Positions 3 to 14,168 of a DNA stretch of 24,786 nt are shown in pieces (position 1 is the stretch's first letter; each line of letters begins with the position of its first letter). The translations under genes and the position numbers were made by a program. The notes under the pieces are model-generated. The model was not told the origin of the DNA, ran no database searches, and was given only the letters and a program-made list of their open reading frames with translations. The DNA comes from a virus: the IMG/VR virus record IMGVR_UViG_3300042559_001495, positions 1 to 24,786 of that record; one strand, 5' to 3'.

Positions 3-2759
3 ACACTTGCTGAACGAATGCAGGAAGCATTTGAAGATAAATTTGGAGAAGATTTTGAAGAAGATGAAGATGATGACGATTTTGAGGAAATAGATTATGA
101 AGAAGTACTCAATAAAAAAAGAAAGGAAACAGGAACTAAAGAAAGAAAATCTTACTATGTTTCTAATACAAAACTACTGCAAGGTATCACCAAGAGTTTA
201 TTGGCAGTTACTGGGCAACTTGAGCAAGTAAATCAATCTTTAATTGAACAAAATCAATTACTTCAAACAAATGTTGATCTCAATTTAGCATCTCTTGAAG
301 CATTGCAAGCACAGGATGATATTCTAGCAACTAAATTTGATGCTATACTCAATGCATTCCAACAGCAGTATGAAGCAGCGCAGAAAGCAGAAGAAGAAGC
401 AAAGAGATTAAGAGCAGAGCAAAGATTAGAATCAAAGAATGGTAGTTCTGGATCAGAAACTCCAGATGATCTTACTAAAGGAGGAAAGGGTGGAGGAAGA
501 AAAAATAGAATATACCAATATTTTAGAGAAAAATTAATAAGACAATTATATAGAAAACTACCAAAACGAGTAAGAGCTTTGCGAACGAGAGGTAGAAAAT
601 TACAGAGAATGCCTGGTAGAGCAGTAGGAAGAGTTACAAATACTGTTGCCAGTAGAATTTCTAGAATGCTTCCTTCTAAAGTATCTAATTTTGGTAGGAA
701 TATTACTACAGCTAGATCTGCCGTGAAGGGCATGGGTGGATTCTCTAAGTTTAAAGGTGTTGGTAAAAATATTCCTGGGTTAAAACAAGCACTCGCTGTT
801 TGGGAATATGGAGATAGAAAAGCTGCAGGACAATCTGATATACAAGCGTCAATTGGTGTTGGTGGTGGACTTGCTGGTGCTGCTGCTGGCGCTGCAATCG
901 GAACAATGCTTTTCCCTGGTGTTGGAACTGTTGCTGGTCTTTTAATTGGTGCTGCATTTAGTGCTGCTGGTGGCTATGCTGGATCTAAAATTGCTGATAA
1001 ATTTACTGGAGTAAAAGATAAGCAATATGAAAGAGGCACTCAAAAAGCTAAGCCAGGAATGTCAGTGCTTCATGGAACTGAGTTATTAATCAGTGGTAAT
1101 AAAAATAATTTAGATCCAATTAATCAAACAGGACAATTGTTATTGGGAGCTACCTCTGGGTATATAAATTCATTGGGACCAGCTGGTGCTAGTATTGCTC
1201 CTGTATTCAAACAAAAAGCTGCACCATTAATTAAAATATTTGGTCTTCCTGCAACTATTGCTAGATCAAAAGTGGGAGGAAATTTCACAAATATAAAAGG
1301 AGCGTTTAAAAGTATAGATAAAAAAATTGATAGTGTCGATACAATGACAGAAGAAAATTTATCAATGGAAGAAAAGGATTTATTTAAATTAAAAAATTCT
1401 GATACTTTTGCTGATAAATTATTAAGTATATTAGATCCAGAAAATAGATTTCAAAATTTATTACAAAATTTAAATAGGCATTTTGATACTCCTCCTATAC
1501 CACTATCTGAAGGTGGATATGCTACATTTGGAAAAACTGGACGTGGCAGCAACGCTAAAGGATGGGTGCATGGGCATTTCCAAAATTCAAATAGTAAGGC
1601 AGAACTTTTAAGAGACACCTTTCCTTTTGTTAGAAAATTATTAGATCAAGGATCTGAGGTAGTTATTACTGGGGGAGTTGATAGACCATTAACTAAAGAT
1701 ATGGATGATAATGAAGTGAAAGAAATGATTTCTAAAGGAATAGACACACATTCCAATAGAACAAAAGGTTATTTTGCAGTTGATGTTTCTGTGAGAGAAG
1801 GAACTAAAGTTCCATTTGCTTTACAAGATGTTAGAAATACTGGAGGAAATGAAGGTATTAGTGGTTTAATTCCTGGAACAAATACTTTCATTGGACATTT
1901 AGCAGAAGGCTCTAGATCTGGAGGTCCATCAGGTTCCCCAGTGCTACCATCAACAACAGCGGTAAAACCATCTTCTGCTATAGTTAAAGACTTAGGTAAA
2001 CAAAATGTTATGTCTGCTAAAGATTTTGGACAAACTTCTGGAGTAGGAAGCAATGGATATATTATTATTCCTGGTCACGCTACTGGTGGTGGGGCTCCAG
2101 GAGAAAAGGAAATGGTTAAAAGTCTTGCTAGAAATGCATACAATAATATTAAAAGACAGAATCCATCAGCAAAAGTTTTGTTAATGGATTTAGATGAAAA
2201 GTTTCCAGATACTGATGCTGGATGGGAAGCACAGAAAAAATGGTATCAGCAAAAAGAGAAAGAGGGTTATGAGATACTGGAAGTGCATTTAGATGGTAAA
2301 GGAGGAACTGGTAAAGGTATTATTGTTCCTCATAGAGAATTGAATGCAGTTGAAGCAGAATTTGCAAGAACTCATGGAGCTTATCCTAGAGATTGGAGAT
2401 CTAAAAAAGGTGAAGAACCACTTGCTGGACCTAATAGAGGAATATCTTTAATTGAATTGGGCAATGTTCCTGAAAACTTAACTCAAGGAGTAATGAATTA
2501 TCTCACTAAACCATTGGAGGATTCTGTTTTAAAAGTTTCTGGTGGATCACTAAATTCAATTTCTTCATTGCAAGGTAACGATGGCAATCCAGATACAAAA
2601 TATTTAATCATAAATCAAAGACAAAAACCACAAGATTTACAAGTGCTTGGATTTAATAATGATGTTAAATTTATTTCCAATGGAAATGGTGGATGGAAAA
2701 CAACTAAAGAAATTAGTAAAACACTAAGACAATTATATTTACAAAGACTTTCCAAATAA
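3..2759 (+). CDS. Tail/virion-associated protein with glycine zipper and Amidase_3-like C-terminus (5' partial)
   Basis: The frame is open to the left edge (T-L-A-E-R precede the Met at 18), so the true start is probably upstream. Residues are numbered from that Met. In order: a very acidic N-terminus (1-30); a long alpha-helical, coiled-coil-like stretch (about 50-135); an ETPDD motif (147-151); a basic Arg/Lys-rich region (160-240); a Gly/Ala-rich glycine-zipper hydrophobic segment (about 278-328) that could enter a membrane; an LHGTE motif (351-355); and a C-terminal domain (about 678-830). The C-terminal domain matches the Amidase_3 pattern: PGH (H687), E696 or E698, EVH (H757) and LIELGN (E813) could be the zinc ligands and catalytic Glu of an N-acetylmuramoyl-L-alanine amidase. 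Residues 505-630 (VHGHF, H578, AVD589) faintly recall a metallopeptidase. Inferred role: murein cleavage and membrane passage during DNA entry. It shares motifs with the next gene. Amidase call moderate; virion location comes from context. Confidence 0.72.
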   Translation, partial: TLAERMQEAFEDKFGEDFEEDEDDDDFEEIDYEEVLNKKRKETGTKERKSYYVSNTKLLQGITKSLLAVTGQLEQVNQSLIEQNQLLQTNVDLNLASLEALQAQDDILATKFDAILNAFQQQYEAAQKAEEEAKRLRAEQRLESKNGSSGSETPDDLTKGGKGGGRKNRIYQYFREKLIRQLYRKLPKRVRALRTRGRKLQRMPGRAVGRVTNTVASRISRMLPSKVSNFGRNITTARSAVKGMGGFSKFKGVGKNIPGLKQALAVWEYGDRKAAGQSDIQASIGVGGGLAGAAAGAAIGTMLFPGVGTVAGLLIGAAFSAAGGYAGSKIADKFTGVKDKQYERGTQKAKPGMSVLHGTELLISGNKNNLDPINQTGQLLLGATSGYINSLGPAGASIAPVFKQKAAPLIKIFGLPATIARSKVGGNFTNIKGAFKSIDKKIDSVDTMTEENLSMEEKDLFKLKNSDTFADKLLSILDPENRFQNLLQNLNRHFDTPPIPLSEGGYATFGKTGRGSNAKGWVHGHFQNSNSKAELLRDTFPFVRKLLDQGSEVVITGGVDRPLTKDMDDNEVKEMISKGIDTHSNRTKGYFAVDVSVREGTKVPFALQDVRNTGGNEGISGLIPGTNTFIGHLAEGSRSGGPSGSPVLPSTTAVKPSSAIVKDLGKQNVMSAKDFGQTSGVGSNGYIIIPGHATGGGAPGEKEMVKSLARNAYNNIKRQNPSAKVLLMDLDEKFPDTDAGWEAQKKWYQQKEKEGYEILEVHLDGKGGTGKGIIVPHRELNAVEAEFARTHGAYPRDWRSKKGEEPLAGPNRGISLIELGNVPENLTQGVMNYLTKPLEDSVLKVSGGSLNSISSLQGNDGNPDTKYLIINQRQKPQDLQVLGFNNDVKFISNGNGGWKTTKEISKTLRQLYLQRLSK

Positions 2760-2762
2760 ATA
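2755..2762 (+). promoter_or_regulatory. Possible late promoter (AATAAATA)
   Basis: AATAAATA overlaps the TAA stop of the preceding gene and lies 21 nt before the next ATG. It is one base off the T4 late promoter TATAAATA. Such strings can arise by chance in AT-rich DNA, so support comes mainly from position. Confidence 0.35.
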
Positions 2763-2783
2763 AAAATTACGGGGTATAATTAA

Positions 2784-5390
2784 ATGTCTTCTGGTTACGA
2801 AACATCCACAGATACTAGGTTAAATAAAAATATTTTTGGAGATTCTGTAGGAGCATTAATTTCCAAAGTTCTTGCTGCAAAAGTTCTTGCCGATAAAGAA
2901 AGAAAGTTTGCTAAGAAAAAAGCACTTGATATAGGAATGGATGAGGCACAATTTGATGCCATGAATCCTCCTGGCTTCTTTTTTAAGAAAGCATTGGTTG
3001 GTGAATTTGGTGGGTTTAAATTAAAGAAAAAGAAACAAGAACTTACCGCACTTTATAGAAAAGCATTACTTGTTGGTAAAGTAACTAAGAATAAAAGATT
3101 ACGTGGTAAAGTTGTAGGACAACTCAAGCAGTCATTAATATATTCCAAAGCAAATTTAAAGAACTCAAAGAGATTTCGTAGTCAGTTTGATTATACTGAT
3201 TACGAAACATATTTTGAACCACAGAGTGAAAAGATTCCTAGTACTAGAAAGAAAACAAAGAATGCTATTGATGGTGGTGGTCGCAGTAAAAGAATTTCTA
3301 GGGAACAGATTATTGAATCGATTGATGCTATTGCAAAATCAATTGAGAAGACAGCACAATCAATTACACAATCATCTGCTTCTGTCTATGGAACATTAAT
3401 TACATCAAATCAATTACAAGCAGATGTAGCACAAGATCTCAAGGTTAGAAATACTACACTTGAAGATAAACTACAAAAGTTAGTTGATGCAATTTCTAAT
3501 CAAACACAAGTTCAAAAAAATATTGTTGACAAGCGAGAAGACATACAGCAAGAATCGCAGTTGGAAAGAAAAACTGTTGCTTCTGGTTTTGAAACTCCAG
3601 ATGATCTAAGTACAAGAGAGAATGAGCGTAAGATGCATTCATCTTTTGTGGATGAATCTGAGATGATGGCTGCTTATGGATATGGATATGAACCACCTGT
3701 AGTAAGACCAGTGAATAGTATGGTGAATGATATGGCAGCTATGGAAGCATATGGTTATCCACAAGCAGAAAAAGGAGGAGCATTCTCTGGTAAAGGCGGT
3801 GTGGAACTACATGGAACAGAAGCATTGCTTTCTTCAAATGGATCTGCTAAAATAGTTTCTGGTCCTGATAGTGGCTATTTACATAAAATTAACAAGCCTA
3901 CAACAGTAATTCCATTAGATAATAACTATACACAAGGTGAACCAAGTGCTGTTACTGGTAAAGTAGAAACGAAACCAAGAACATCAATGTTGCCGAAATT
4001 TAAACTTCCTCGATTTGAAATGGGAACATCAAATTTTTATAACAATTCTGTGAATATGAATAAAGATGTTTCAGAACCATTAATTGAAACTATGGATCTA
4101 TTAGCAATGACAACTGGAGGATCTATACTTGCTTTGAATACATCTTTCTTAAATGAAGTTGGAGATTCTGGTGAACAAATACGACCAGAAATAAATCAAA
4201 TATCTAGATCTATTGCAAACAATTATAATTTACCTCCTTCTGTTGTAAACAAAGCAGGAAAAGTTAGCTCTAAAACAAAGAAAAGTTTACAGGAAAAAAA
4301 TAGAACAGATAATCAAGAAGAGAAAAAATCTTTATTTGAAAAACTAAAAGAAGGATTTTCTAAATTATTAGAAAATCTTGGGAATAAGATAAATGAAAAT
4401 CCTCCTCCTAATAATCCACCTCCTGGATCCAAAGACTTAACGCCAGTAGATTTAAAAGGATTTAGTGAAAAAGAAGTTTCTGATCTTGGTAGAATGATAT
4501 ATGCAGAAGCAGGTGCAGATGAGAAAGGTGCATCACAAGTGATGAATACTATTTTAAATAGATATAGACAAGTAAAACAAGGAAAAGCAACACCACAAGC
4601 ATGGCGAGTCAGACGTGGAGTTACTTCTCAAACCATGACACTTACTGATTTGCTAATGGCACCAGGTCAATTTCAACCAACAACAGATGGAAGATTTAAT
4701 AAAGTTTCTTCAGAACAAGGAATACAAGCATTAAATGCTGCAATTAGTGGAGGTGGTCTTGATCCAAAACAAATATACGAAAAAGCTAAAGCATCTGGAT
4801 TGTCTGATGCTGATGCTAAAATAGTAGCAGTAGCAGATAGCTTTGCAAATGATTATGGTATGAGAAATAATAGACCTTTTGATTCTAAATTTGTTCGTAC
4901 AGATAATGGTCATTGGTTTGGATCTTCTCCATATACAGGATTCAAACCTTCCGATTTAAATACTTCTAAATTACCAGCATTCACGAAAGAAAGTTCGTCG
5001 CCAGAAAATATAACTAGAAATTATGGACAAGCTCCAGACACAAGAGTAAGATTTCAACTTAATGGTAAATGGTATAATGCATATAAACTTAATAATGGAT
5101 ACGACTTTTACGAAGAAACCCCAAATCCTCTTGATAGAGATAAAAGAATTACAGATCCAAAAGAATTGGCGCCCATTCAAGACGCTTTTATCAAATTAAA
5201 AGAAAGCAAATTACAACCTCCAAATAAAACAGATGTGAGCTACAATTTAAAGCCATCATCAAATGGAAATACTGATATTGCTTTATTAAATATTAGTAAT
5301 GATACAGAGACTTCTTCTGCATATTCTGTGCCATCTGATTATAAAGTGTCTGCCTTAACAAATCCAGTAAGTAATTTTTATATTTCATAA
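2784..5390 (+). CDS. Tail/virion-associated protein with SleB-like (Hydrolase_2) cell-wall hydrolase domain
   Basis: 868 residues; ATG at 2784 preceded by GGGG 9 nt upstream. The N-terminal part is basic, followed by a helical coiled-coil-like stretch (about 170-265) rich in Ile, Gln and Ser. An ETPDDL motif lies at 270-275 and an LHGTE motif at 342-346, both also found in the preceding protein in the same order. A Pro/Asn-rich linker (about 540-555) leads to a C-terminal domain (about 560-710) with RMIYAEAGADEKG followed by NTILNRYR. This is the signature of SleB/Hydrolase_2 cell-wall hydrolases, with E575 the likely catalytic Glu. The last 150 residues are low-complexity or of unknown fold. 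Inferred role: a tail-borne murein hydrolase acting on the host wall at infection. It sits 2 nt before the hub gene. Domain call fairly firm; place in the virion inferred. Confidence 0.78.
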   Translation: MSSGYETSTDTRLNKNIFGDSVGALISKVLAAKVLADKERKFAKKKALDIGMDEAQFDAMNPPGFFFKKALVGEFGGFKLKKKKQELTALYRKALLVGKVTKNKRLRGKVVGQLKQSLIYSKANLKNSKRFRSQFDYTDYETYFEPQSEKIPSTRKKTKNAIDGGGRSKRISREQIIESIDAIAKSIEKTAQSITQSSASVYGTLITSNQLQADVAQDLKVRNTTLEDKLQKLVDAISNQTQVQKNIVDKREDIQQESQLERKTVASGFETPDDLSTRENERKMHSSFVDESEMMAAYGYGYEPPVVRPVNSMVNDMAAMEAYGYPQAEKGGAFSGKGGVELHGTEALLSSNGSAKIVSGPDSGYLHKINKPTTVIPLDNNYTQGEPSAVTGKVETKPRTSMLPKFKLPRFEMGTSNFYNNSVNMNKDVSEPLIETMDLLAMTTGGSILALNTSFLNEVGDSGEQIRPEINQISRSIANNYNLPPSVVNKAGKVSSKTKKSLQEKNRTDNQEEKKSLFEKLKEGFSKLLENLGNKINENPPPNNPPPGSKDLTPVDLKGFSEKEVSDLGRMIYAEAGADEKGASQVMNTILNRYRQVKQGKATPQAWRVRRGVTSQTMTLTDLLMAPGQFQPTTDGRFNKVSSEQGIQALNAAISGGGLDPKQIYEKAKASGLSDADAKIVAVADSFANDYGMRNNRPFDSKFVRTDNGHWFGSSPYTGFKPSDLNTSKLPAFTKESSSPENITRNYGQAPDTRVRFQLNGKWYNAYKLNNGYDFYEETPNPLDRDKRITDPKELAPIQDAFIKLKESKLQPPNKTDVSYNLKPSSNGNTDIALLNISNDTETSSAYSVPSDYKVSALTNPVSNFYIS

Positions 5391-5392
5391 TA

Positions 5393-6814
5393 ATGGAAAA
5401 ATCACCATATGCTTCTAGTTTTAGCTTAGAAAAAGTAACTATAACTCAAGTAGAAACAAATAGAACTTTAGATATTACTGATTTGGTAATACAGTATAAT
5501 TATTTTGAGAGTATAAATTACCCTTCAATTGCTGGTATATTAACACTAGTAGATACAAATGAAAATTTAATATCTACCTTACCAATTCAAGGATTTGAAA
5601 AAATCAATATATCATTATCATCTTATGATAACAAAAAATATAATTATTCTTTTAGAGTTTATAAAATAGAAAATAGAATGAATTCTGATAGATTTCAAAC
5701 CTATACTTTGGGATTGGTATCAACAGAAGCATTACTTAATGAAGGTGTTCGAATTGGTAGAACATTAAAGGGAAAGCCTAACGATATTGTTAAAGAAATT
5801 CTTGAGAAATATTTGAATACTGATAAAGATATTTTTGTAGACCCATCAATATACAATGTGATATTTCAACCAGGAAAGAAGACACCATTTTCTATTATTG
5901 ATTCTTTAAAAACAAAAGCAGTTCCAGAAGGAAGTTCAATTAAATCATTAGCTAAATCTGCAACTAAAAAATCTAATACGGAAAGTACAGGAACATCTGA
6001 TATTTCTTCCACAGAAACATCAGATTATAAATCAGCTGGAGGAACAGCAGGATATTTTTTCTATGAAAATAGAGAAGGTTATTTTTTTAAATCTGTAGAC
6101 GGATTATGTTCATCTGATAAATTTAATGGAGAAGAACCTGTAGCAAAATATATTCAAGAACCCATTGACGTTGGTGGATTACCAGATAGAAAAATTTTAG
6201 AAATTGATTACAACAATGAAATAGATATTCTCAGTAAATTGAGAACAGGAGCATTCTCATCTTTGATTTGTTTCTATAACTATAGCACTGGTGCTTATGA
6301 AGAATATGTTTATTCTTTAGCGAAAGAATATGAAACTATGGGACATATGGGATCACAGAAAGGATTGCCATATGGTCAAAAAGAATTATCAAAGTATCCA
6401 ACTAGAATTATGAGTGTTCTTCTTGATCATGAAACATGGTTTAATGGAAAAGAACCAGCGTCACCTGAAGAAAGGGATGGAGCAAATGGAAAAACAACAG
6501 GCTTTCCAGATTTTCAAAAGTATTATATATCTCAGTCAATTTCTAGATATAATTCATTAGAAAATCAAACTGCAAATATAAGAGTTACTGGCAATCCACA
6601 ATTAAAAGTTGGGGATAAAATAGAAATTCTTATACCAAATCAAATACCAACTAGCAAAAGAGCTTCTCAAGTATACGATAATGAACATAGTGGAGTATAT
6701 TTAATTTCGGAACTACAACATGCCTTTAGTCCAAAAGAAAGGAAGTCTACTACATATATGACATTAATTAGAGATTCTTATGGAAGACAAAATAGTTCAT
6801 CTAGTGTTAAATAA
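5393..6814 (+). CDS. gp27-like baseplate hub protein
   Basis: 473 residues; ATG only 2 nt after the previous stop, suggesting translational coupling. The N-terminus (about 10-150) has the beta-rich pattern of hub proteins that form a tube-like domain below the tail tube, with a SINYPSIAGILTLVDTNENL segment and a following KINISL strand. The C-terminal part (about 330-470) ends with a GDKIEI stretch and an SGVYLISELQHAF strand typical of gp27/gpD-type hubs. T4 gp27 is 391 residues, so this one is longer. A Ser/Thr/Lys-rich loop at about 185-217 accounts for part of the difference. Its place just upstream of the gp5-like OB-fold gene fits a hub-spike pair. The alternative is another baseplate hub subunit of the same fold. 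Confidence 0.68.
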   Translation: MEKSPYASSFSLEKVTITQVETNRTLDITDLVIQYNYFESINYPSIAGILTLVDTNENLISTLPIQGFEKINISLSSYDNKKYNYSFRVYKIENRMNSDRFQTYTLGLVSTEALLNEGVRIGRTLKGKPNDIVKEILEKYLNTDKDIFVDPSIYNVIFQPGKKTPFSIIDSLKTKAVPEGSSIKSLAKSATKKSNTESTGTSDISSTETSDYKSAGGTAGYFFYENREGYFFKSVDGLCSSDKFNGEEPVAKYIQEPIDVGGLPDRKILEIDYNNEIDILSKLRTGAFSSLICFYNYSTGAYEEYVYSLAKEYETMGHMGSQKGLPYGQKELSKYPTRIMSVLLDHETWFNGKEPASPEERDGANGKTTGFPDFQKYYISQSISRYNSLENQTANIRVTGNPQLKVGDKIEILIPNQIPTSKRASQVYDNEHSGVYLISELQHAFSPKERKSTTYMTLIRDSYGRQNSSSSVK

Positions 6815-6837: not shown

Positions 6838-9800
6838 ATGGATCCAGTATTATCATCACTATTTCCTGTTCATCAGATTGGTGCTGACGGATTCAATTGG
6901 TGGATCGGTCAAGTTGAATCCAACAAGAACGACGACCCAAAGAATTCTGGTAGGTATCGAGTAAGAATTGTTGGACAACATTTAAAATCATGTGATGCTA
7001 CATCATCAGAAGAATTGCCTTGGGCAAATGTAATGATGCCTGTTACATCTCCATGGTCTGATGGTGGAGTAACTGGGGGATCAGTTAATCTTCAACTGGG
7101 AAATTGGGTACTTGGATTTTATTTAGATAATGATAAGCAGAAACCTATTATCATGGGATCTGTTGGACATACTGCTGGTGCTACATTACTTAAGAATGTA
7201 GAAGAAGATCCAAACCCAGGAGAAACATGCAAATCATTTACGACATTTCTTTCCCCAGACAGAGATCCATATCAGCACGAACCTTTACCAGAATCAGAAA
7301 AAACTAACCCATCAACTAATACCAATACAAACGAAAATAAAAATACAACAATAGGTCAAGCTGGTCTTCCTGCTAATGCTGTTCCAAATCAAAACGCAGC
7401 AAATTTTTATGCATTGTTTGCTCAAAATTCTTCAAATAATCCAAATGGTGCTAAGATATGTGTAGAAATTGCTGATCCAAAGTGTGGTTCTGAAAGTGAT
7501 CTCAAAGGAAGACTTACTAGTATTGTTGGTGATATGCTAGCCAATACCCAACAATCTGGAGGACAGCTAGGGGATTTTTATGTTAGTAAAGTTAATGGTG
7601 AACTTAATAGATATGTTGATATAGGAAGATACCATGTAAATAGAGCAATCAGATTGGTTAAAAGTTTTATTGCAAGGGTAAAAGGAGAATTAATTAAACT
7701 TATTAGAGAAGGAATAGATAAACTAATTGATACTGCTTTATATGCAAAAGTTCCTGATAAAGATGAGTTTGGAAATACTAATACAGGACCTATAAATCCA
7801 GACCTTGGAATAAAACCTTTTACACCAATCACAAAAAAAGAATCCAGATTAAAAAAAATTCAAGAATTTCTAGATAAAGTTTTGGAAGATCTTGGATGTA
7901 GCATTGAAGACATTACAGAAAAAATGTCTCAATGGATTACGGATACTTTAATGAGATATTTAATGCAAGCTTTTAATGCTGCAACTTGTTTGATTGATGG
8001 TTTAGTAAATGGTATTATTAACCAACTAATTGGATACTTAGAAGAATTAATATCTCTTGTCATGGGTCCATTGCAACAATTATTATCTACAGCAGCTTCG
8101 CCATTAAATTTAGTTGGCTCTGCAATTAATACTGTACTCGGAATGCTTGGTATATCTTGTGATGGAGCTTCAGAAAAATGTCAAAAAATTAAAAAGGAAT
8201 GTACTGAATGTGATGTAGAAGAAACTGAAGATTGGCTTGATAAATTAATTGATAGCATTGAAAGTGGTGAATTAGCTGGTGATAGTGTATGTTCTGAAGC
8301 AAAACAATTTGTAAAGCAAAAGCGTACAAAAGTTTTTGCTGTTGGTGGAATTTTTAAACCTCCTGTAGATAATAATATTCCAGGAGCAACATTGGGTCCA
8401 AAAAATGAGGTTTTAGATACCACAATTAACACTATATCTTATAGATGTTCTGATGTTACAGTAGTAGAAGGCAACAAAGCAGTTTTTGAAATTATTAGAT
8501 CTGGAAATATTTCATATCCTTCTAGCATTTCATACAATATTACAAATTTTACTGCAAAATATGGAGAAGATTATATTGGTACAACTTCAGGGGTGATTGG
8601 ATTTAGTTCAGGTCAAAAGAAAAAAACAATATCTGTATTGACTCTAAGAGATAATAAAAAAGAAGATGTCGAAGAGTTTAGAATATCATTTAAATCAAAT
8701 ACAGTTGCAGAACAAATTAGACCAAGATTTCCAGATGGCAATGTATTCCGTTGTTTAATAACCAATTTTAATAATTTTACAACAAACAAAAACATTGCAG
8801 ATTCTGTAAGATCAACTCCAGTAAAAAATACTTTAGTATTACCAACATCAGAACCTATAACAAGACAAAAACCTTTAGAGTATCCAACTTATAAAATTAC
8901 TTCTGATAAGAATTTTTACGTAAATGGAGAAACAATAGTTTTTACAATCAATACAAAAAATGTAAGCAACAATACAGAAATAAATTATGAAATATCTGGT
9001 TCAATATCAAGTAATGATATTGAACAAAATTTAACTGGTTCCATAACAATTTTTGATGATGTTGCTACGTTGGAAGTAAAAACAATAAATGATAGTGAAG
9101 TAACAAATGAAACATTAACATTGAGTCTAAATGGAATCAATGTTTCCAAAAGTGTATTGATTTTAGGAGATTCTCAAACAGATATTCAAACTCCTGTTTA
9201 CAATATTGAAGCAGATAAAGAGGTTGTTTCTGAAGGAGAAAGTATAATTTATACAATTTCTACATTAAATGTTTCAGATGGGACAGAACTCAACTATACT
9301 TTTTCTGGAAATGAAATTACAATAAATGATATTATAATCGATGAAAATGATCAGAACAATATCTACAACGTAACCCCTTCATCAGAAAATAATTTAGTTG
9401 GTAGTGTAAAAGTATTTAATAATAAATCAATCATAAAAGTTAAAGTATCAGAAGATAATGTTCTTGAAAAATCTGAGTTATTAACTCTGTCTATCGATGG
9501 GGTAGGAGTTTCTTCTAATGTTATAATTCTTGCTAATCTAAATGAGCAAGTGCAAGAAGATCCTGGTATAACTATAGAAGTTACCAGTGATAAGTTTTCT
9601 TACAATGAAGGAGAGACTATTATCTATAATATTACTACTACTAATGTAGAAGATGGTACTATTTTTTCTTATGCTTTATTTGGAAATAATATATCGGAAG
9701 ATGATTTTGTAAATAAATCTTTCTATGGTTCCTTTACTGTCGTGGAAAATTCTGCAAAGGTTTATGTTGGTATAGAAAAAGATTTAATTTTAGAACAAGA

Positions 9801-10443
9801 AGAAATTGTTACCTTCAATATAGTTGGTACTGAAGCGTTTGCTGAAATTGTAATAAATGGCGATGAAGTTATTGATGAAGTTATTGATGGACCTATTTCA
9901 TTACCCTGCATAACTCCACCAACTTTTGCAGAACCAATTACAGATGCTAGTGGTAACATTATTAGTATACCAGTGATTGATAATGGATGCCCATATCAAA
10001 ACCCACCAACGATAATAATTCAAGGAAATGGTTATGGAGCAAGAGCTATAGCATTGCTGGATGATAAAGGATATGTTAGTGAGATTAGAGTAACAAAAAC
10101 TGGAGCTAACTATACAAAAAATCTTCCAGATACAAATTTACGTTGTATAATAGATTCATTTACTTTACTATCTCCTGGTAGAGGTTACACTTCACCACCA
10201 ACTGTAATTATCAATGGAGAAAAAGGTATTGCTGAAGCTTTGGTAAATAGTAATGGTTTTGTTTATAGTGTGAGAATACTTGACAGGTCAAAAGAATATT
10301 ATGAAATACCTTCTATTATAATTCAAGGTGGTGGAGGATCTGGAGCAAGAATATTACCAAATATTGTTTGTAGTGATCCTATTGAACTTGAAAATATTGG
10401 TTATGCTAAAATCGGAACTGGTAAATATATTGATTGCCCATAA
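6838..10443 (+). CDS. gp5-like baseplate hub/spike protein with OB-fold and Calx-beta-type extensions
   Basis: 1201 residues. Residues 1-115 form the Gp5 OB-fold: WWIGQVESN, GRYRVRIVGQH, LPWANVMMP, GSVNLQLGNWVLGFYLD and KPIIMGSVG, which join gp27 to the spike. No T4 lysozyme catalytic pattern is visible after it. Instead there is a helical middle (about 215-480) ending in a Cys-rich patch (C441, then the KKECTECD stretch near 455). A Calx-beta-like domain follows (about 535-620). Three related beta-sandwich repeats (about 683-1005) carry the motif EGE-[ST]-I-[IV] and NV-[SE]-DGT. A C-terminal part (about 1025-1185) has repeated PPT-[IV]-I-I-x-G strands. The Calx-beta-like modules would lie outside the tube and may bind calcium or surface polymers; this is inferred. 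The gene ends in TAATG, overlapping the next start by one base. Confidence 0.78.
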   Translation: MDPVLSSLFPVHQIGADGFNWWIGQVESNKNDDPKNSGRYRVRIVGQHLKSCDATSSEELPWANVMMPVTSPWSDGGVTGGSVNLQLGNWVLGFYLDNDKQKPIIMGSVGHTAGATLLKNVEEDPNPGETCKSFTTFLSPDRDPYQHEPLPESEKTNPSTNTNTNENKNTTIGQAGLPANAVPNQNAANFYALFAQNSSNNPNGAKICVEIADPKCGSESDLKGRLTSIVGDMLANTQQSGGQLGDFYVSKVNGELNRYVDIGRYHVNRAIRLVKSFIARVKGELIKLIREGIDKLIDTALYAKVPDKDEFGNTNTGPINPDLGIKPFTPITKKESRLKKIQEFLDKVLEDLGCSIEDITEKMSQWITDTLMRYLMQAFNAATCLIDGLVNGIINQLIGYLEELISLVMGPLQQLLSTAASPLNLVGSAINTVLGMLGISCDGASEKCQKIKKECTECDVEETEDWLDKLIDSIESGELAGDSVCSEAKQFVKQKRTKVFAVGGIFKPPVDNNIPGATLGPKNEVLDTTINTISYRCSDVTVVEGNKAVFEIIRSGNISYPSSISYNITNFTAKYGEDYIGTTSGVIGFSSGQKKKTISVLTLRDNKKEDVEEFRISFKSNTVAEQIRPRFPDGNVFRCLITNFNNFTTNKNIADSVRSTPVKNTLVLPTSEPITRQKPLEYPTYKITSDKNFYVNGETIVFTINTKNVSNNTEINYEISGSISSNDIEQNLTGSITIFDDVATLEVKTINDSEVTNETLTLSLNGINVSKSVLILGDSQTDIQTPVYNIEADKEVVSEGESIIYTISTLNVSDGTELNYTFSGNEITINDIIIDENDQNNIYNVTPSSENNLVGSVKVFNNKSIIKVKVSEDNVLEKSELLTLSIDGVGVSSNVIILANLNEQVQEDPGITIEVTSDKFSYNEGETIIYNITTTNVEDGTIFSYALFGNNISEDDFVNKSFYGSFTVVENSAKVYVGIEKDLILEQEEIVTFNIVGTEAFAEIVINGDEVIDEVIDGPISLPCITPPTFAEPITDASGNIISIPVIDNGCPYQNPPTIIIQGNGYGARAIALLDDKGYVSEIRVTKTGANYTKNLPDTNLRCIIDSFTLLSPGRGYTSPPTVIINGEKGIAEALVNSNGFVYSVRILDRSKEYYEIPSIIIQGGGGSGARILPNIVCSDPIELENIGYAKIGTGKYIDCP
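8884..9860 (+). repeat. Three tandem beta-sandwich protein repeats in the gp5-like gene
   Basis: Units start near 8884, 9193 and 9568. Each has a [TA]-[SD]-[DK] opening, then GE[ST]I[IV][FY], N-V-x-[DN] with T-E-[LI]-N-Y or similar, and an E-x-E or E-L-L-T closing strand. Units are about 100-125 codons and clearly diverged in DNA sequence. They resemble Calx-beta-type domains of large cyanobacterial and phage surface proteins. Confidence 0.7.
9913..10380 (+). repeat. Short PPT-type beta repeats at the gp5-like C-terminus
   Basis: The pattern [NS]PPT[IV]IIxGxGxGA followed by a G-[YF]-V-x-[ES]-[IV]-R segment and a Gly-x-x-Tyr turn recurs. Clear copies are near 10003-10120 and 10183-10290, with a variant near 10309-10360. 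This suggests a repetitive beta domain. Confidence 0.6.
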
Positions 10444-11630
10444 TGTCTACTAATCAACCGTTATCTACTGAAACAGATAAAGCAGTAAAAGGAGAACTCC
10501 CAAAAGGCGAAGGGGAATATTCTGGATGGGCTGGTGGTCCAGAAGTAGAATATTTCAAACAACTTACTAAAGATATATCTTTTTCTGCATATAAATTTCC
10601 TGATGGTTCAACTGGAGCTGCCCTTTACTCTAAAGCCTGGGCTTTTCATGCTGACAATAATAATAATTTTATTTTTACAGCAGGTCCACCATCACAAGGT
10701 GGGTGTGGAGGAAAACTGATACAAAAAACAGAAGCTATTGTCCAGCAAACTGGTTCTGTTAGTACTCATGTAACAGGAAGGAAAGAAGATGGAGTTGTTG
10801 ATAAAAAAGTTAAAGATGGTGATGTTGAAGAATCAAAACTTCCAGCTTATTCACTAAAAGTAGAGGGTGATATTTTTATTGAATCTGTTGGTGGAGAAGT
10901 TGCTTTAAAGGGAGATGTAATTACTTTAAATGCATTGAACACATTGAATTTGAAGTCTGGGAAAGATATTAATATTCAAGCAGGAGATAATAGTGGAAAA
11001 GTAACTATTAATTGTAGTAAATATGATTTAAACGCAGCATTTTTTAATAAAAATGTAACTGGAGGTGAGTATTCAAAAGGCTCTGGTGAAAATGAAGTAG
11101 AACAATATAATTCTGGATCTACTACTACATTATCAACTCCAGGAAGTGTTAATTATGTAGTCAATGGTGACTATACAGTTGGGGTTAAAGGAGATTACAA
11201 ACAAATAGTTGATAAAAATTATAGCATAGAATCTAAAAAAGATTATGCTATAAAAATTGATGGTGACTATTCGATGGAAGTTGGCGGAAAGGCTAAAACA
11301 ATTTTCAACGGAGTTAATAAACAATCCACTCAAAAAGAAGCTTATCTTATGAAAATAGGTGCTTCTACTAAAAATATTCCTGGATTTTTAATTGATTCAG
11401 ATTCTCAAGTTAAAATACAAACAGCTATGGATGGAATTGTTGTAGAAACTTCCAAGCAAACAAGTAAACTAGAATTAAATCAAAAAGAATTTATAGTTTC
11501 TGTTGGCAAAAAAATGGGAGAGTTAGCAATTAACCAATTAGAAAGTAAACTATCGTTTGGTCAAACTGCTTCTATTTCAATGAGTGCATCAAAAACTAGC
11601 ATTAAAGGTACGGCTATCTATTTGAACTAA
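10443..11630 (+). CDS. Beta-helical spike/needle protein (gp5 C-terminal or VgrG-like)
   Basis: 395 residues from the ATG at 10443, which shares one base with the gp5-like stop (TAATG). A TTG nine bases upstream is open in frame but less likely. The N-terminal 90 residues include GGPEVEYFKQ and a Gly-rich segment. Residues about 135-300 are a chain of short beta strands with hydrophilic turns, including GDVITLNALNTLNLKSGKDI and repeated GDY steps (GDYTVGVKGDY, GDYSMEVGG). This is the pattern of the triple-stranded beta-helix at the tip of T4 gp5 and VgrG. Position directly after the OB-fold gene suggests a spike built from two polypeptides, OB-fold and needle. This is the last gene before the tRNA island. 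Role inferred from fold pattern and order. Confidence 0.68.
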   Translation: MSTNQPLSTETDKAVKGELPKGEGEYSGWAGGPEVEYFKQLTKDISFSAYKFPDGSTGAALYSKAWAFHADNNNNFIFTAGPPSQGGCGGKLIQKTEAIVQQTGSVSTHVTGRKEDGVVDKKVKDGDVEESKLPAYSLKVEGDIFIESVGGEVALKGDVITLNALNTLNLKSGKDINIQAGDNSGKVTINCSKYDLNAAFFNKNVTGGEYSKGSGENEVEQYNSGSTTTLSTPGSVNYVVNGDYTVGVKGDYKQIVDKNYSIESKKDYAIKIDGDYSMEVGGKAKTIFNGVNKQSTQKEAYLMKIGASTKNIPGFLIDSDSQVKIQTAMDGIVVETSKQTSKLELNQKEFIVSVGKKMGELAINQLESKLSFGQTASISMSASKTSIKGTAIYLN

Positions 11631-11870: not shown

Positions 11871-11945
11871 GGGATTGTTGCTTATTGGTTAAAGCCCACT
11901 GCTTATAACGGTGTGAACGGGGTTCAATTCCCTGCAGTCCTACCA
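11871..11945 (+). tRNA. tRNA-Ile (anticodon UAU)
   Basis: Full cloverleaf: acceptor GGGATTG/CAGTCCT (G1-U72 wobble), D stem GCTT/AAGC, anticodon stem CACTG/CGGTG with loop CTTATAA, T stem CGGGG/CCCTG with loop TTCAATT. Anticodon TAT lies at 11904-11906 and reads AUA. The discriminator A and CCA (11943-11945) are encoded. The host normally reads AUA with a CAU-lysidine tRNA, so UAU is a different solution. The next gene has the same anticodon. Confidence 0.85.
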
Positions 11946-11946
11946 T

Positions 11947-12018
11947 GGGAGTATAGCTTAATGGTTAGAGCGGGCTCCTTATAAGGGCTTAGTCTGGGTT
12001 CAACTCCCAGTATTCCCA
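11947..12018 (+). tRNA. tRNA-Ile (anticodon UAU), second copy type
   Basis: Acceptor GGGAGTA/TATTCCC, D stem GCTT/GAGC, anticodon stem GGCTC/GGGCT with loop CTTATAA, T stem CTGGG/CCCAG. Anticodon TAT lies at 11980-11982. No CCA is encoded. It starts one base after the CCA of the previous tRNA. Stems differ from the first Ile-UAU gene, so this is not a recent duplicate. Confidence 0.82.
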
Positions 12019-12020
12019 TT

Positions 12021-12093
12021 GCTCCTTTAGCTCTCTGGCGAAAGCACCGAACTCATAATTCGGCTAAGGTCGGTTCGATCCCGACAAGGAGCA
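12021..12093 (+). tRNA. tRNA with anticodon CAU (Met, or Ile2 if lysidine-modified)
   Basis: Acceptor GCTCCTT/AAGGAGC, anticodon stem CCGAA/TTCGG with loop CTCATAA, T stem GTCGG/CCGAC. Anticodon CAT lies at 12054-12056. The D arm is short (3 pairs). Elongator Met and Ile2 both use the CTCATAA loop, so identity cannot be fixed by eye. The initiator type is less likely because the acceptor starts with a G-C pair. Confidence 0.82.
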
Positions 12094-12094
12094 C

Positions 12095-12123
12095 TTGACA
12101 ATTTAAGCAACCTATGCTACAAT
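12095..12123 (+). promoter_or_regulatory. Sigma70 promoter P3 (TTGACA-17-TACAAT, extended -10)
   Basis: TTGACA 12095-12100, 17-nt spacer, TACAAT 12118-12123 preceded by TGC. It sits in the 43-bp gap between the CAU tRNA and tRNA-Leu and would transcribe tRNA-Leu, the 90-aa gene and cpeT. Confidence 0.8.
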
Positions 12124-12136
12124 TGTCATATACCAC

Positions 12137-12220
12137 GGGGATGTGGTGGAAGTGGTAGACACACCAGACTTAAAATCTGTTGAGCGTATGCTCGTGGGGG
12201 TTCAAGTCCCCCCGTCCCTA
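12137..12220 (+). tRNA. tRNA-Leu (anticodon UAA)
   Basis: Acceptor GGGGATG/CGTCCCT (G-U at 1-72), anticodon loop CTTAAAA with TAA at 12171-12173, long variable arm GAGC-GTAT-GCTC typical of Leu, T stem GGGGG/CCCCC. The outermost anticodon-stem pair is a C-U mismatch. No CCA. It reads UUA, abundant in these genes. Confidence 0.88.
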
Positions 12221-12222
12221 TT

Positions 12223-12249
12223 CATCCACTAAATATTTCGTAGTGGATG
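12223..12249 (+). promoter_or_regulatory. Perfect 9-bp hairpin between tRNA-Leu and the next start codon
   Basis: CATCCACTA (12223-12231) and TAGTGGATG (12241-12249) form a 9-bp stem with a 9-nt loop. There is no T-run, so it is not a classic terminator. The 3' arm ends four bases before the ATG at 12254 and contains the only GGA-like ribosome site. It could limit translation or be an RNA processing site. Confidence 0.55.
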
Positions 12250-12253
12250 TATC

Positions 12254-12526
12254 ATGAAATACAAATACACATTATCTCAATCTTATGTCTTCTATATGGG
12301 AGAGGTAGTACGTATGTATTTCATACAAGGTGTACCATATACCTTTGATGAACTACCCCAAATAGTTCAAGATCACCCTTCTGTTCAGGCAGAAGCACTT
12401 CAGCATCGTGATTATGATGATGAATGTCTTTACATGGCATCAAATTATTTGGTGACTGAAGCTGCTCATCCACTTATGTTTGAACTTGAAGTTGACAATC
12501 CAGATCTATTGCCAAAAGATGATTGA
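12254..12526 (+). CDS. Hypothetical protein, 90 aa
   Basis: ATG at 12254 with a weak GGA ribosome site that can be buried in the preceding hairpin. In-frame Met codons at residues 15 and 21 are alternative starts. The product is acidic and soluble (DDE and DNP clusters), with no signal peptide or membrane segment. No family recognised. It overlaps the cpeT start by 8 nt, which suggests coupled translation and perhaps a related role. Typical of small uncharacterised cyanophage genes. Confidence 0.62.
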   Translation: MKYKYTLSQSYVFYMGEVVRMYFIQGVPYTFDELPQIVQDHPSVQAEALQHRDYDDECLYMASNYLVTEAAHPLMFELEVDNPDLLPKDD

Positions 12527-13070
12527 AAAATTTAAAGAACTTTTAGTTGGTAAATTTGATAATAAAAGACAAGCATTTTCTTTTCCAAGTAAGTTTGCTT
12601 TTATTAGAATCACGCATATAGATATTGGTAATAATCTTTATTATGGAGAACAAGCTTACAATCATCAACTTCACAGTCCATACAGACAATTTGTTCTTGA
12701 GACAATTCAAGAAGAAAATCAAATTCGTATTATCAACTACGAATTATTAGACAAAGATCAATTTAAAAACTGTCAAAACCTTGACAAAATTGATAGAAGT
12801 ATGCTAAAATTAAAGAGTGGTTGTGACGTTGTTGTAACACAAGATGGTGATTCATTTAAAGGAGGATTGACTGGTTGTGATTGTCATGTTGATTGGATGG
12901 GTAGAGATACTTATCTTCAAAATCAAATTGAACTAACTCCAGATTTTTATTATGTAATTGACAAAGGATTTTGTGCTAAAGATAACCATCAACTTTGGGG
13001 ATCTAAATATGGTAGATTTGAATTTGCAAGAATGCCTCTAAAGCATTGTGGTGATGTACCGCTCTTGTAA
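12519..13070 (+). CDS. cpeT: CpeT/CpcT-family phycobiliprotein lyase-like protein
   Basis: 183 residues from the ATG at 12519, which overlaps the preceding gene by 8 nt. An in-frame Met 13 codons upstream (12480) would lie deep in that gene and is less likely. Family hallmarks: YYGEQAYNHQ (41-50), SPYRQFVLE (53-61), NYELLD (73-78), SGCDVVV (100-106), GCDCH (119-123), LTPDFYYVIDKGF (139-151) and QLWGSKYGRFEFAR (158-171). Cellular CpeT and CpcT attach or help attach phycobilin chromophores to phycobiliprotein cysteines. Cyanophage homologues are known auxiliary genes whose exact activity is uncertain. The family domain ends at about residue 171. The last 11 residues are encoded by DNA that is also the 5' half of tRNA-Thr, and the TAA stop lies in the anticodon loop. 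Probably transcribed early from P3. Confidence 0.85.
   Translation: MIEKFKELLVGKFDNKRQAFSFPSKFAFIRITHIDIGNNLYYGEQAYNHQLHSPYRQFVLETIQEENQIRIINYELLDKDQFKNCQNLDKIDRSMLKLKSGCDVVVTQDGDSFKGGLTGCDCHVDWMGRDTYLQNQIELTPDFYYVIDKGFCAKDNHQLWGSKYGRFEFARMPLKHCGDVPLL
12781..12810 (+). promoter_or_regulatory. Sigma70 promoter P4 inside cpeT (TTGACA-18-TAAAAT, extended -10)
   Basis: TTGACA 12781-12786, 18-nt spacer, TAAAAT 12805-12810 preceded by TGC, the same TATGC context as P3. It lies in coding sequence, so conservation through protein sequence is possible. It could drive tRNA-Thr and the noncoding region beyond. Confidence 0.5.
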
Positions 13071-13104
13071 AGCGGAGAGTTCAGTTCAATTCTGAATAGA
13101 GGCT
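13034..13104 (+). tRNA. tRNA-Thr (anticodon UGU), overlapping the cpeT 3' end
   Basis: Acceptor GCCTCTA/TAGAGGC (7 Watson-Crick pairs), D stem GCAT/ATGT, anticodon stem CCGCT/AGCGG with loop CTTGTAA, T stem TTCAG/CTGAA with loop TTCAATT. Anticodon TGT lies at 13066-13068. Discriminator T; no CCA. Its first 37 bases overlap cpeT. Confidence 0.85.
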
Positions 13105-13153
13105 TCGCTTTCACATGGACTGGAAATATCTGGTCGTAGTGATAGCGTTCAAT

Positions 13154-13242
13154 GTAGGTGCCAAAACCGCTCCTCAGTCCTAGTATTCTGTGTCTGAGTG
13201 AATGTAAAGAGTGGGGACATAGGTAAAGTCCCCAACACCTAC
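13154..13242 (+). ncRNA. Possible multibranched structured RNA
   Basis: GTAGGTG (13154-13160) pairs with CACCTAC (13236-13242) and encloses two hairpins: CTCAG/CTGAG (13173-13177 with 13194-13198) and TGGGGAC/GTCCCCA (13212-13218 with 13228-13234). It fills the gap between tRNA-Thr and a tRNA-like element, where I see no good reading frame. It is not a normal tRNA. P4 or read-through could transcribe it. Bases 13105-13153 show nothing else clear. Confidence 0.35.
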
Positions 13243-13247
13243 CACAA

Positions 13248-13319
13248 CTTCTGGTAGTCTATTGGTAAGGACGGGTGGACAACACACATGGAAACTGGGT
13301 TCGATTCCCAGCCAGGGGA
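13248..13319 (+). pseudogene. Decayed tRNA or tRNA-like element
   Basis: Acceptor CTTCTGG/CCAGGGG (two G-U pairs), D stem GTCT/GGAC with ATTGGTAA loop, and a perfect T arm CTGGG-TTCGATT-CCCAG are intact. The segment between (13273-13294) gives no 5-bp anticodon stem and no loop with U33. It looks like a tRNA that has lost its anticodon arm, or a tRNA-like structure kept for another use. Confidence 0.55.
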
Positions 13320-13349
13320 CGATAGAGGGTAAGCCTCTGTTATATCCTT

Positions 13350-13508
13350 ATGAGGTATATTACGCTTACTCCATCAATAACACCCCTCAAGCCTATCTCC
13401 CATTCACGAGACCAATTTGTTGGCGCCAACAAAAAGGTTTTGGGGATGATGCTCAAACAGAGGGGTCACTACTATATTAACACACATACACACAAGAGAA
13501 AACAATGA
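13350..13508 (+). CDS. Possible small ORF, 52 aa
   Basis: ATG 13350 to TGA 13508; the stop overlaps the next ATG as ATGA. The product is basic with a His/Thr/Lys/Arg-rich tail (THTHKRKQ). No clear ribosome site precedes it and codon use (CTC, CCC, GCC) differs from the AT-rich genes around. An 18-bp palindrome lies inside. It may be real or just open by chance. No family recognised. Confidence 0.3.
   Translation: MRYITLTPSITPLKPISHSRDQFVGANKKVLGMMLKQRGHYYINTHTHKRKQ
13416..13433 (+). promoter_or_regulatory. Perfect 18-bp palindrome
   Basis: TTTGTTGGC/GCCAACAAA with no spacer. The absence of a loop and of a downstream T-run argues against a terminator; two-fold symmetry fits a binding site for a dimeric protein. 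It lies 72 bp before the 70-aa gene. Confidence 0.45.
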
Positions 13509-13717
13509 GTAAAACACCTTACGAACTTCGCTTTGAAATTTTCAAGCAAGCATATAATATGTTGAACGATGAGTTCTGCGTTGATTATGACTTTGCAAGA
13601 ACATGGAATGAAAATTCTATGAACAATGTTAAGATGGATCTTCCTGAGTTTCCATCTCTACGAAAAGTTTTGAAGCAAGCAGAAGTGATTAATGCTTTTG
13701 TAAGTTCAAACCCATAG
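13505..13717 (+). CDS. Hypothetical protein, 70 aa
   Basis: ATG at 13505 after a weak AGAG ribosome site. Soluble, mixed-charge, mostly helical product starting MSKTPYELRFEIFKQAY; no signal peptide or membrane segment. It has the look of the small conserved hypothetical proteins of T4-like cyanophages, but I cannot name a function. It ends three bases before tRNA-Leu(UAG), so it is likely co-transcribed with it and released by tRNA processing. Confidence 0.72.
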   Translation: MSKTPYELRFEIFKQAYNMLNDEFCVDYDFARTWNENSMNNVKMDLPEFPSLRKVLKQAEVINAFVSSNP

Positions 13718-13720
13718 TAT

Positions 13721-13802
13721 GTCGATGTGGCGGAATTGGTAGACGCACTGGGTTTAGGTTCCAGTGTCTTCGGACGTGGGGGTTCAAGTCCCTTCATCGA
13801 CA
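13721..13802 (+). tRNA. tRNA-Leu (anticodon UAG)
   Basis: Acceptor GTCGATG/CATCGAC, anticodon stem CTGGG/TCCAG with loop TTTAGGT and TAG at 13755-13757, a long variable region typical of Leu, and a T-arm with GTTCAAGTC. It reads CUA (and other CUN by wobble). No CCA. Directly followed by a terminator. Confidence 0.88.
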
Positions 13803-13830
13803 TGAATTTGGTTTTTCCAAATTCACTTTT
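13803..13830 (+). terminator. Rho-independent-like terminator after tRNA-Leu(UAG)
   Basis: TGAATTTGG (13803-13811) and CCAAATTCA (13817-13825) form a perfect 9-bp stem with a TTTTT loop, followed by CTTTT. The stem is AT-rich, so efficiency may be modest. It begins the base after the tRNA. Confidence 0.65.
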
Positions 13831-13844
13831 CAGTTACATAAATT

Positions 13845-13880
13845 CGGGAAAAAATTTCCCGCCAAAAAATCGCCAAAAAA
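13845..13880 (+). repeat. Hairpin plus tandem GCCAAAAAA repeats
   Basis: CGGGAAA/TTTCCCG (13845-13851 with 13855-13861) is a 7-bp stem, followed by two copies of GCCAAAAAA 11 bp apart (13861 and 13872). It separates the tRNA-Leu terminator from the 50-aa gene and has no T-run on the + strand. Role unknown. Confidence 0.45.
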
Positions 13881-13894
13881 GTCGAGGGTAAGTT

Positions 13895-14047
13895 ATGTCA
13901 CTACTTTCTAAAAAGGATCATGATATGGTTATTGAAGCACTTGATTTTTATCTATTCAATAAACAATTTGATATTCCTGACGAAAAAAAGATGGAACTTA
14001 ATGCTCTTCTTAATTGGGTGAAAATTAAATCAAAAAGTACTTTTTGA
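13895..14047 (+). CDS. Hypothetical protein, 50 aa
   Basis: This short frame begins at ATG 13895 with a strong GAGG ribosome site seven bases upstream, which makes it credible despite its size. The product (MSLLSKKDHD...KSTF) is charged and predicted helical, with no membrane segment. No family recognised. It ends 7 bp before tRNA-Asn, repeating the small-gene-then-tRNA arrangement seen at 13505-13802. Confidence 0.62.
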   Translation: MSLLSKKDHDMVIEALDFYLFNKQFDIPDEKKMELNALLNWVKIKSKSTF

Positions 14048-14054
14048 TCTATAT

Positions 14055-14126
14055 TCCAGAGTAGCTCAGTGGCAGAGCTGGCGGCTGTTAACCGCTCGGT
14101 CGCAGGTTCAAATCCTGCCTCTGGAG
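14055..14126 (+). tRNA. tRNA-Asn (anticodon GUU)
   Basis: Acceptor TCCAGAG/CTCTGGA, D stem GCTC/GAGC, anticodon loop CTGTTAA with GTT, T stem GCAGG/CCTGC with loop TTCAAAT. Discriminator G, as usual for Asn; no CCA. A small hairpin TTGGC/GCCAA follows at 14127-14142. It sits just before a very Asn-rich structural gene. Confidence 0.9.
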
Positions 14127-14168
14127 TTGGCGATACTGCCAAGAACCAACCCCTTCCGTGTGACTTTT

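Follow-up and report, generated by a model that had tools for sequence, protein, structure and literature searches.

Adjacent tail proteins of T4-like cyanophages as probable carriers of exchangeable, complementary murein hydrolase domains

Bacteriophage T4 cuts the cell wall at its baseplate hub with the tail lysozyme of gp5, in a gene neighbourhood of gp26, gp51, gp27 and gp5. In the Anabaena myophage A-1(L), the hub protein gp15 has lysozyme, endoglucanase and peptidase domains, and lysis of host cells was demonstrated for the latter two (PMC10966104). Tail and tape measure proteins that bear hydrolase modules are well documented, for instance Tmp of mycobacteriophage TM4 (PMC1796659) and those in a survey of enterococcal phages (PMC10194240), which describes a tape-measure lytic transglycosylase that adjoins an NlpC/P60 tail protein in myoviruses. 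Polymorphic toxins join a conserved carrier to diverse C-terminal enzyme domains that arise by recombination (PMC3482391). Here we analyse a 24,786-base IMG/VR virus record (IMGVR_UViG_3300042559_001495; its whole length is called the window), in which two adjacent tail proteins, A and B, each carry a predicted murein hydrolase domain. Gene content and nearest relatives identify the window as part of the genome of a T4-like cyanomyovirus (Kyanoviridae). Its marker genes encode a gp27-like hub protein (phrog_350), a split gp5 homologue, CpeT, eight tRNAs and a structural protein of 3300 residues, and the annotated phages closest to it are Sf-FR1, S-CAM1, S-CAM3 and S-H9-1.

The locus resembles that of T4 in its gene order, gp26-gp51-A-B-gp27, and the slot of A and B between gp26/gp51 and the gp27-like gene is kept in all intact loci examined. 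It differs from T4 in that no lysozyme domain was found in gp5, and in that several enzyme families are carried by two other large proteins. In domain content it is similar to A-1(L) gp15, likewise a cyanophage tail hub that unites glycan-type and peptidase domains; gp15 is a single hub protein with fixed domains, whereas in the present locus the cassettes are interchangeable and are borne by two carriers distinct from the hub barrel protein. Hydrolase modules in long tail proteins are shared with the TM4 and enterococcal lysins, but the accessible parts of those sources do not describe the neighbouring proteins as paralogous carriers, nor cases in which nearly identical carriers hold unrelated enzymes between flanks that are conserved. 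Compared with polymorphic toxins, the inferred targets here are murein bonds, the cassettes are followed by a conserved tail and the pairs are complementary. We consider it likely that A and B are distantly paralogous hub carriers with exchangeable, complementary murein hydrolase cassettes that replace the T4 gp5 lysozyme. No description of this cassette exchange in cyanophages was found in the open-access literature searched. As far as the literature searched extends, the paralogous carrier pair, the exchange at sharp borders, a nearly strict rule of one cutter of each kind and a domain family designated AX are new.

Comparison of relatives, designated below by locus number (L) or phage name, indicates that enzyme cassettes have repeatedly been exchanged between conserved flanks. 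Between B of the window and B of its nearest relatives, the carrier part (residues 1-538) is 66-74% identical and the enzyme region 19-24%, which is the background level. For the B proteins of L011 and L012, identity is 89% over the carrier, falls to 24% across the enzyme region and returns to 86% over the final 121 residues; for L011 and L013 the corresponding values are 92%, 23% and, in the tail, 64%. At the DNA level, the B genes of L011-L013 run for about 1.7 kb at 87-88% identity, continue for about 580-790 bp without detectable similarity and then resume at 90-92%. The neighbouring gp27-like gene is similar throughout, with 95-98% identity overall and 87% in its least conserved 60-column window. 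Phage S-H9-1 bears both enzymes of the window at 51% identity each, on other carriers and in reversed gene order, the B-type domain being in its protein X. The AX domain of A shares 78% identity with its counterpart in L041; the A carrier of L041, by comparison, is 42% identical to that of the window, and the L041 amidase belongs to a different family. In these comparisons the exchange between conserved flanks is directly visible.

Several phages show clear paralogy of the carriers themselves; in the window it is weak. The layout described in the initial annotation, with a helical N-terminal part, an ETPDD motif, an LHGTE motif and a C-terminal wall-hydrolase domain, is indeed present in both proteins. 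Residues 13-158 of A and 126-276 of B, the helical stretch ending in ETPDD, are 23% identical (BLASTP E=2e-8 with composition correction off; E=1.7e-5 in a window-wide search), and nothing was obtained for A and B at E<=1e-3 by BLASTP with composition correction and low-complexity masking. Profile-profile comparison (hhalign) of the N-terminal parts, which had been suggested as a check, found them related (98.1% probability, E=8.7e-14), over only 59 coiled-coil-like columns.

The likeness of A and B could be convergence, with only the swapping of enzymes being real, as coiled coils and short motifs are common in tail proteins. Such a reading is consistent with the short, coiled-coil-like similarity in the window, which disappears under composition correction, with shared 5-mers that are not unusual (two or more occurred in 93 of 500 shuffles) and with the position of LHGTE in B, which is not a conserved one: it lies within a stretch of about 24 residues that is not present in Sf-FR1, S-CAM1 and S-CAM3, while [LM]HGTE is kept in A of L012, L013, Sf-FR1, S-CAM1 and S-CAM3. 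We regard convergence as unlikely in view of the carrier similarity within single phages, where corrected BLASTP gives 3e-40 for S-H9-1 (56% over 147 residues), 2e-18 for Syn9, 6e-16 for S-RIM44, 6e-15 for Sf-FP1 and 5e-13 for S-H9-2, with weaker values in S-CAM1 and L012/L013. In addition, A and B of L012 contain collinear blocks, pairing 500-600 with 188-274 and 821-869 with 449-497. Protein X of S-H9-1 is most similar in the set to its own neighbour Y, and Y is closer in identity to the S-RSM4 protein (66%, 112 residues), so that repeated duplication or recombination of the carriers is possible.

The initial annotation had proposed duplication of a carrier with exchange of the enzyme domain, and had pointed to an identical run of 17 bases (GAAACTCCAGATGATCT) found both at 456-472 and at 3591-3607, which encodes ETPDD at 456-470 and 3591-3605. 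The identity is real at both sites, but says little about duplication: given the codon usage of the window, all five ETPDD codons would be equal with P=0.11, two or more shared 5-mers also arise by shuffling, as mentioned above, and the corresponding residues in A of the nearest relatives are EDPED or EDPVD. We therefore reject it as a sign of recent duplication. What remains of the proposal is enzyme exchange on conserved carriers and carrier paralogy in several phages, without a recent duplication in the window; duplication and exchange are properties of the cyanomyovirus group and not of this phage alone.

From structure prediction we conclude that the C-terminal domain of A has the fold of Amidase_3, a family of zinc N-acetylmuramoyl-L-alanine amidases, as had been predicted from the sequence. 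The AlphaFold model of residues 659-850 has a predicted local distance difference test (pLDDT) score of 83, and ranks 1-15 of its Foldseek matches in the PDB are all Amidase_3 proteins (PlyPSA, Rv3717, AmiP, Ami1 and AmiA among them; best E 3.7e-5). H692, E701, H762 and E818 (H34, E43, H104 and E160 of A11) are invariant or nearly so in an alignment of 21 sequences, an order that matches the metal ligands and catalytic glutamate of Amidase_3. The window sequence itself gave no Pfam hit at the curated cut-off of Amidase_3 (PF01520), which 2 of the 21 alignment members match (best 4e-10); we therefore name the domain Amidase_3-like only and regard it as a divergent branch. No significant match was obtained when PDB sequences were searched with profiles; for the amidase profile, the top hit was a phage endolysin (E=0.045). 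The N-terminus of A lies outside the window. The reading frame is open to the window start, and A matches its intact counterpart in L012 (1277 residues) well only from L012 residue 478, so that position 18, previously taken as the start of A, is an internal methionine.

The SleB-like domain that had been noted in B is supported by the Hydrolase_2 family (PF07486): all nine aligned sequences match it (best value 4e-6), and the sequence of the window reaches 6.8e-4 and 20.7 bits, below the curated cut-off of 27 bits. B of L027, tied to this enzyme family by profile comparison (E=8.2e-7), exceeds the cut-off with 29.5 bits. E575, within an AEAG motif, is invariant in the nine sequences, and we take it to be the catalytic glutamate by analogy with SleB. 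Many B proteins and some A proteins (those of L012, L013 and L027) have a small module (..YEAYKTENGFDIY..) C-terminal to the enzyme; it is possibly a wall-binding or spacer module.

Ahead of the amidase, A contains a second domain, AX, which the initial annotation did not list. An iterated hidden Markov model (HMM) finds it in 27 of the 177 cyanophage tail proteins of our set, with H523, H583, D594 and H632 invariant, and in A it occupies the slot that M23 or M15 peptidases hold in relatives. AX is without a Pfam match, and its AlphaFold model (pLDDT 78) is without a convincing fold match in the PDB; the matches are ferredoxin-like and middling, to ribosomal S10 and related proteins with VIA Z values of at most 6.1, a likeness of the model that we take as a common arrangement. 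M23 and M15 folds are not among these PDB matches, a list whose silence excludes neither, and the best matches among the predicted viral structures of BFVD are other cyanophage tail proteins only. By hhalign, AX gave a probability of 3.9 against M23, 4.5 against a doubled M23 profile and 0.25 against M15; the comparison with M15 is thus negative. The doubled profile aligned HxH, Asp and HL in permuted order, with a reversed-profile control at 0.15; we do not claim AX as a circularly permuted M23 at such a probability, and the ferredoxin-like matches of the model speak against it. Because of its slot and its pairing with glycan cutters, AX is probably a cutter of peptide or amide bonds.

The combination of enzymes was surveyed in 49 non-redundant pairs from loci reachable by sequence from the window, many of them fragments. 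Domains were assigned with HMMs built here and anchored in Pfam where possible (M23, Hydrolase_2, Glucosaminidase, Phage_lysozyme2, Peptidase_M15_4 and DPBB_1); the muramidase-like class (Mur4678) has no Pfam anchor in the members tested and is based on similarity to a 'putative muramidase' of S-T4. A peptide or amide domain in A faces a glycan domain in B in 16 pairs, and AX faces a glycan domain in 12; the reverse order occurs in four. Two pairs have AX plus a peptide or amide domain with a glycan domain, one has a peptide or amide domain with a protein holding both kinds, three more include one protein holding both kinds, and 11 contain one or more proteins without an assignment. A peptide/amide (or AX) domain is combined with a glycan domain wherever both genes are classified, and none of the 49 has two of one kind. 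When pairs relying on AX only are set aside, complementarity holds in 23 of 23. Under random dealing the probability of such an outcome would be P=1e-6, a figure that is only a guide, as the pairs share ancestry and the classes were drawn up after the first architectures had been seen. The earlier proposal that the pair would cut both the amide and the glycan parts of murein is thus upheld in the domain content of the relatives, from which the cutting itself is deduced.

The same proposal held that the pair would replace a gp5 lysozyme that seemed absent, and Pfam agrees: the gp5 homologues of the window, S-CAM1, S-H9-2, S-RSM4, Syn9 and Sf-FR1 have the OB domain and no lysozyme domain, which fits A and B having assumed that task. 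A location in the virion is suggested by phage S-CREM2, in which ORF208 and ORF209 were found in purified virions by mass spectrometry, with 73 and 71 unique peptides (PMC10665884). In our comparison these are the two genes directly 5' of its gp27-like gene, and the muramidase-type domain of ORF209 is common to other members of the set. Their correspondence to A and B rests on position and domain type, since similarity in sequence was not detected. The records of ACG-2014i, RB11-B and S-CREM2 carry the label 'endolysin', and A and B might accordingly be ordinary lysis endolysins located in the tail region by chance. We consider this very improbable, given the fixed slot in all intact loci, the large non-enzymatic carriers and the recovery of the S-CREM2 pair from virions.

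Several observations weigh against the view of A and B as paralogous hub carriers of complementary enzymes. The homology of A and B in the window is limited to the helical stretch, and S-RSM4, ACG-2014i, ACG-2014j and S-WAM2 have a single gene only. AX has no known family or fold, and its treatment as a peptide cutter, on which 12 of the 49 pairs depend, is an assumption; the 11 pairs with at least one domain-less protein lack evidence for one or both kinds of cutter. The S-CREM2 pair, which is outside the 49, has two glycan-type domains (GH19 and Phage_lysozyme) with no peptidase found, and no sequence similarity of this pair to the window carriers was detected. The S-CREM2 authors list ORF208 and ORF209 as endolysins, possibly inside the capsid (PMC10665884).

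The carriers may have a further role. A, or A together with B, could primarily be the cyanomyovirus tape measure, with the hydrolase cassettes as passengers, as in the tape measures of other phages. Features that suggest this are the helical N-terminal segment with a weak match to phrog_167, the hydrophobic glycine-zipper stretch of A and a GEEGPE/GEAGAE motif in A or the single protein of relatives, a motif known from tape measure proteins. S-CREM2, whose tail of 418 nm is the longest known for a cyanomyovirus, also has the longest pair here (1565 and 1456 residues; L138:1484-10555), and the tape measure was called not identifiable in a comparison of pelagi- and cyanomyophages (PMC7029224). 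On the other hand, the lengths vary widely (529 and 516 residues in P-SSM2), the phrog_167 match is largely to glycine-rich sequence and one carrier can be missing. We hold a primary tape-measure role to be doubtful; it is compatible with the carrier explanation preferred here and does not exclude it. Less readily still would we assume that A and B are also a two-part tape with a distal, hypermodular wall-cutting pair selected for complementarity, with AX as a new murein-cutting family, either peptidase or amidase, that has a fold of its own. The glycine-zipper stretch is typical of A-type carriers in most relatives and of the single protein of S-RSM4, is missing in B and is possibly membrane-active. 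Around it, S-RSM4 and S-H9-2 share a block of 88 residues with 78% identity.

For the enzyme activities of A and B, their place in the tail, the order of events and the role of AX, we infer the following course. Close to its C-terminal end, each carrier would bear an exchangeable murein hydrolase cassette and, behind it, a short tail that is conserved, and the two carriers would substitute for the gp5 lysozyme of T4. On infection they would enter the periplasm together with the hub; A would open the peptide or amide side of murein with AX and its Amidase_3-like domain, and B the glycan side with Hydrolase_2, which would allow the tube to reach the inner membrane. Relatives would swap cassettes via recombination between the conserved flanks, with selection retaining one cutter of each kind.

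Table 1. Positions in the window of proteins A and B, their domains and motifs, and the neighbouring hub genes.
Feature	Position	Strand	Basis
Protein A, first carrier with enzyme cassette, at least 918 residues, 5' end outside the window	3..2759	+	Open frame to window edge; synteny
Helical stretch of A, coiled-coil-like, with ETPDDL (456-473) at its end and a homologous counterpart in B	156..476	+	BLASTP; profile-profile comparison
Hydrophobic glycine-zipper stretch of A, residues 282-326	846..980	+	Composition scan; weak Rick_17kDa_Anti match
LHGTE motif of A, residue 356	1068..1082	+	Exact match
AX domain of A, residues 504-645, unnamed, His/Asp-rich	1512..1937	+	Iterated HMM; invariant columns; AlphaFold
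Amidase_3-like domain of A, residues 659-850	1977..2552	+	AlphaFold; Foldseek; conserved columns
C-terminal tail of A, conserved past the swapped cassette	2568..2756	+	40% to L012 A; 54% to L041 A
Protein B, second carrier with enzyme cassette, 868 residues	2784..5390	+	Open frame
Carrier part of B, residues 1-538	2784..4397	+	66-74% identical to L011, L012, L013, L027
ETPDD motif of B	3591..3605	+	Exact match
LHGTE motif of B, residue 342, in segment missing from more distant B proteins	3807..3821	+	Exact match
Hydrolase_2 (SleB-like) domain of B, residues 570-745	4491..5018	+	Pfam PF07486 family alignment
Small recurrent module after the B enzyme, residues 742-809	5007..5210	+	Common to 50 tail proteins of the set
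gp27-like hub protein, directly 3' of B	5393..6814	+	phrog_350, E=5e-112
gp5-type protein with OB and Calx-beta domains, 1201 residues	6838..10443	+	Pfam Gp5_OB, Calx-beta
Separate protein with gp5 C-terminal spike features	10434..11630	+	phrog_4540, E=4e-53; weak Gp5_C match

Beyond the hub gene (Table 1), gp5 is split in the window into the OB/Calx-beta protein and a separate spike-like protein (6838-11630). Eight tRNA genes follow at 11871-14127, interspersed with small genes and the CpeT gene, and two genes for tRNA-Ile(TAT) abut at 11871-11945 and 11946-12019. In the record of S-B43 (L008:5377-10345), the carriers are unannotated and fiber and structural genes are annotated on the opposite strand of the same DNA. 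The amidase is placed by tblastn on the + strand at L008:7001-7477, and the carrier region of this record is probably misannotated.

T4-like cyanophages are among the most abundant viruses of the ocean. The locus described here points to parts that may allow them to pass the cell wall of Synechococcus and Prochlorococcus. It predicts which bond would be cut by the product of each gene, that both cuts would be needed and that the enzymes would be exchanged between conserved flanks. The locus would also provide a naturally occurring collection of different hydrolases on carriers that are nearly identical, together with AX as a candidate new enzyme family.

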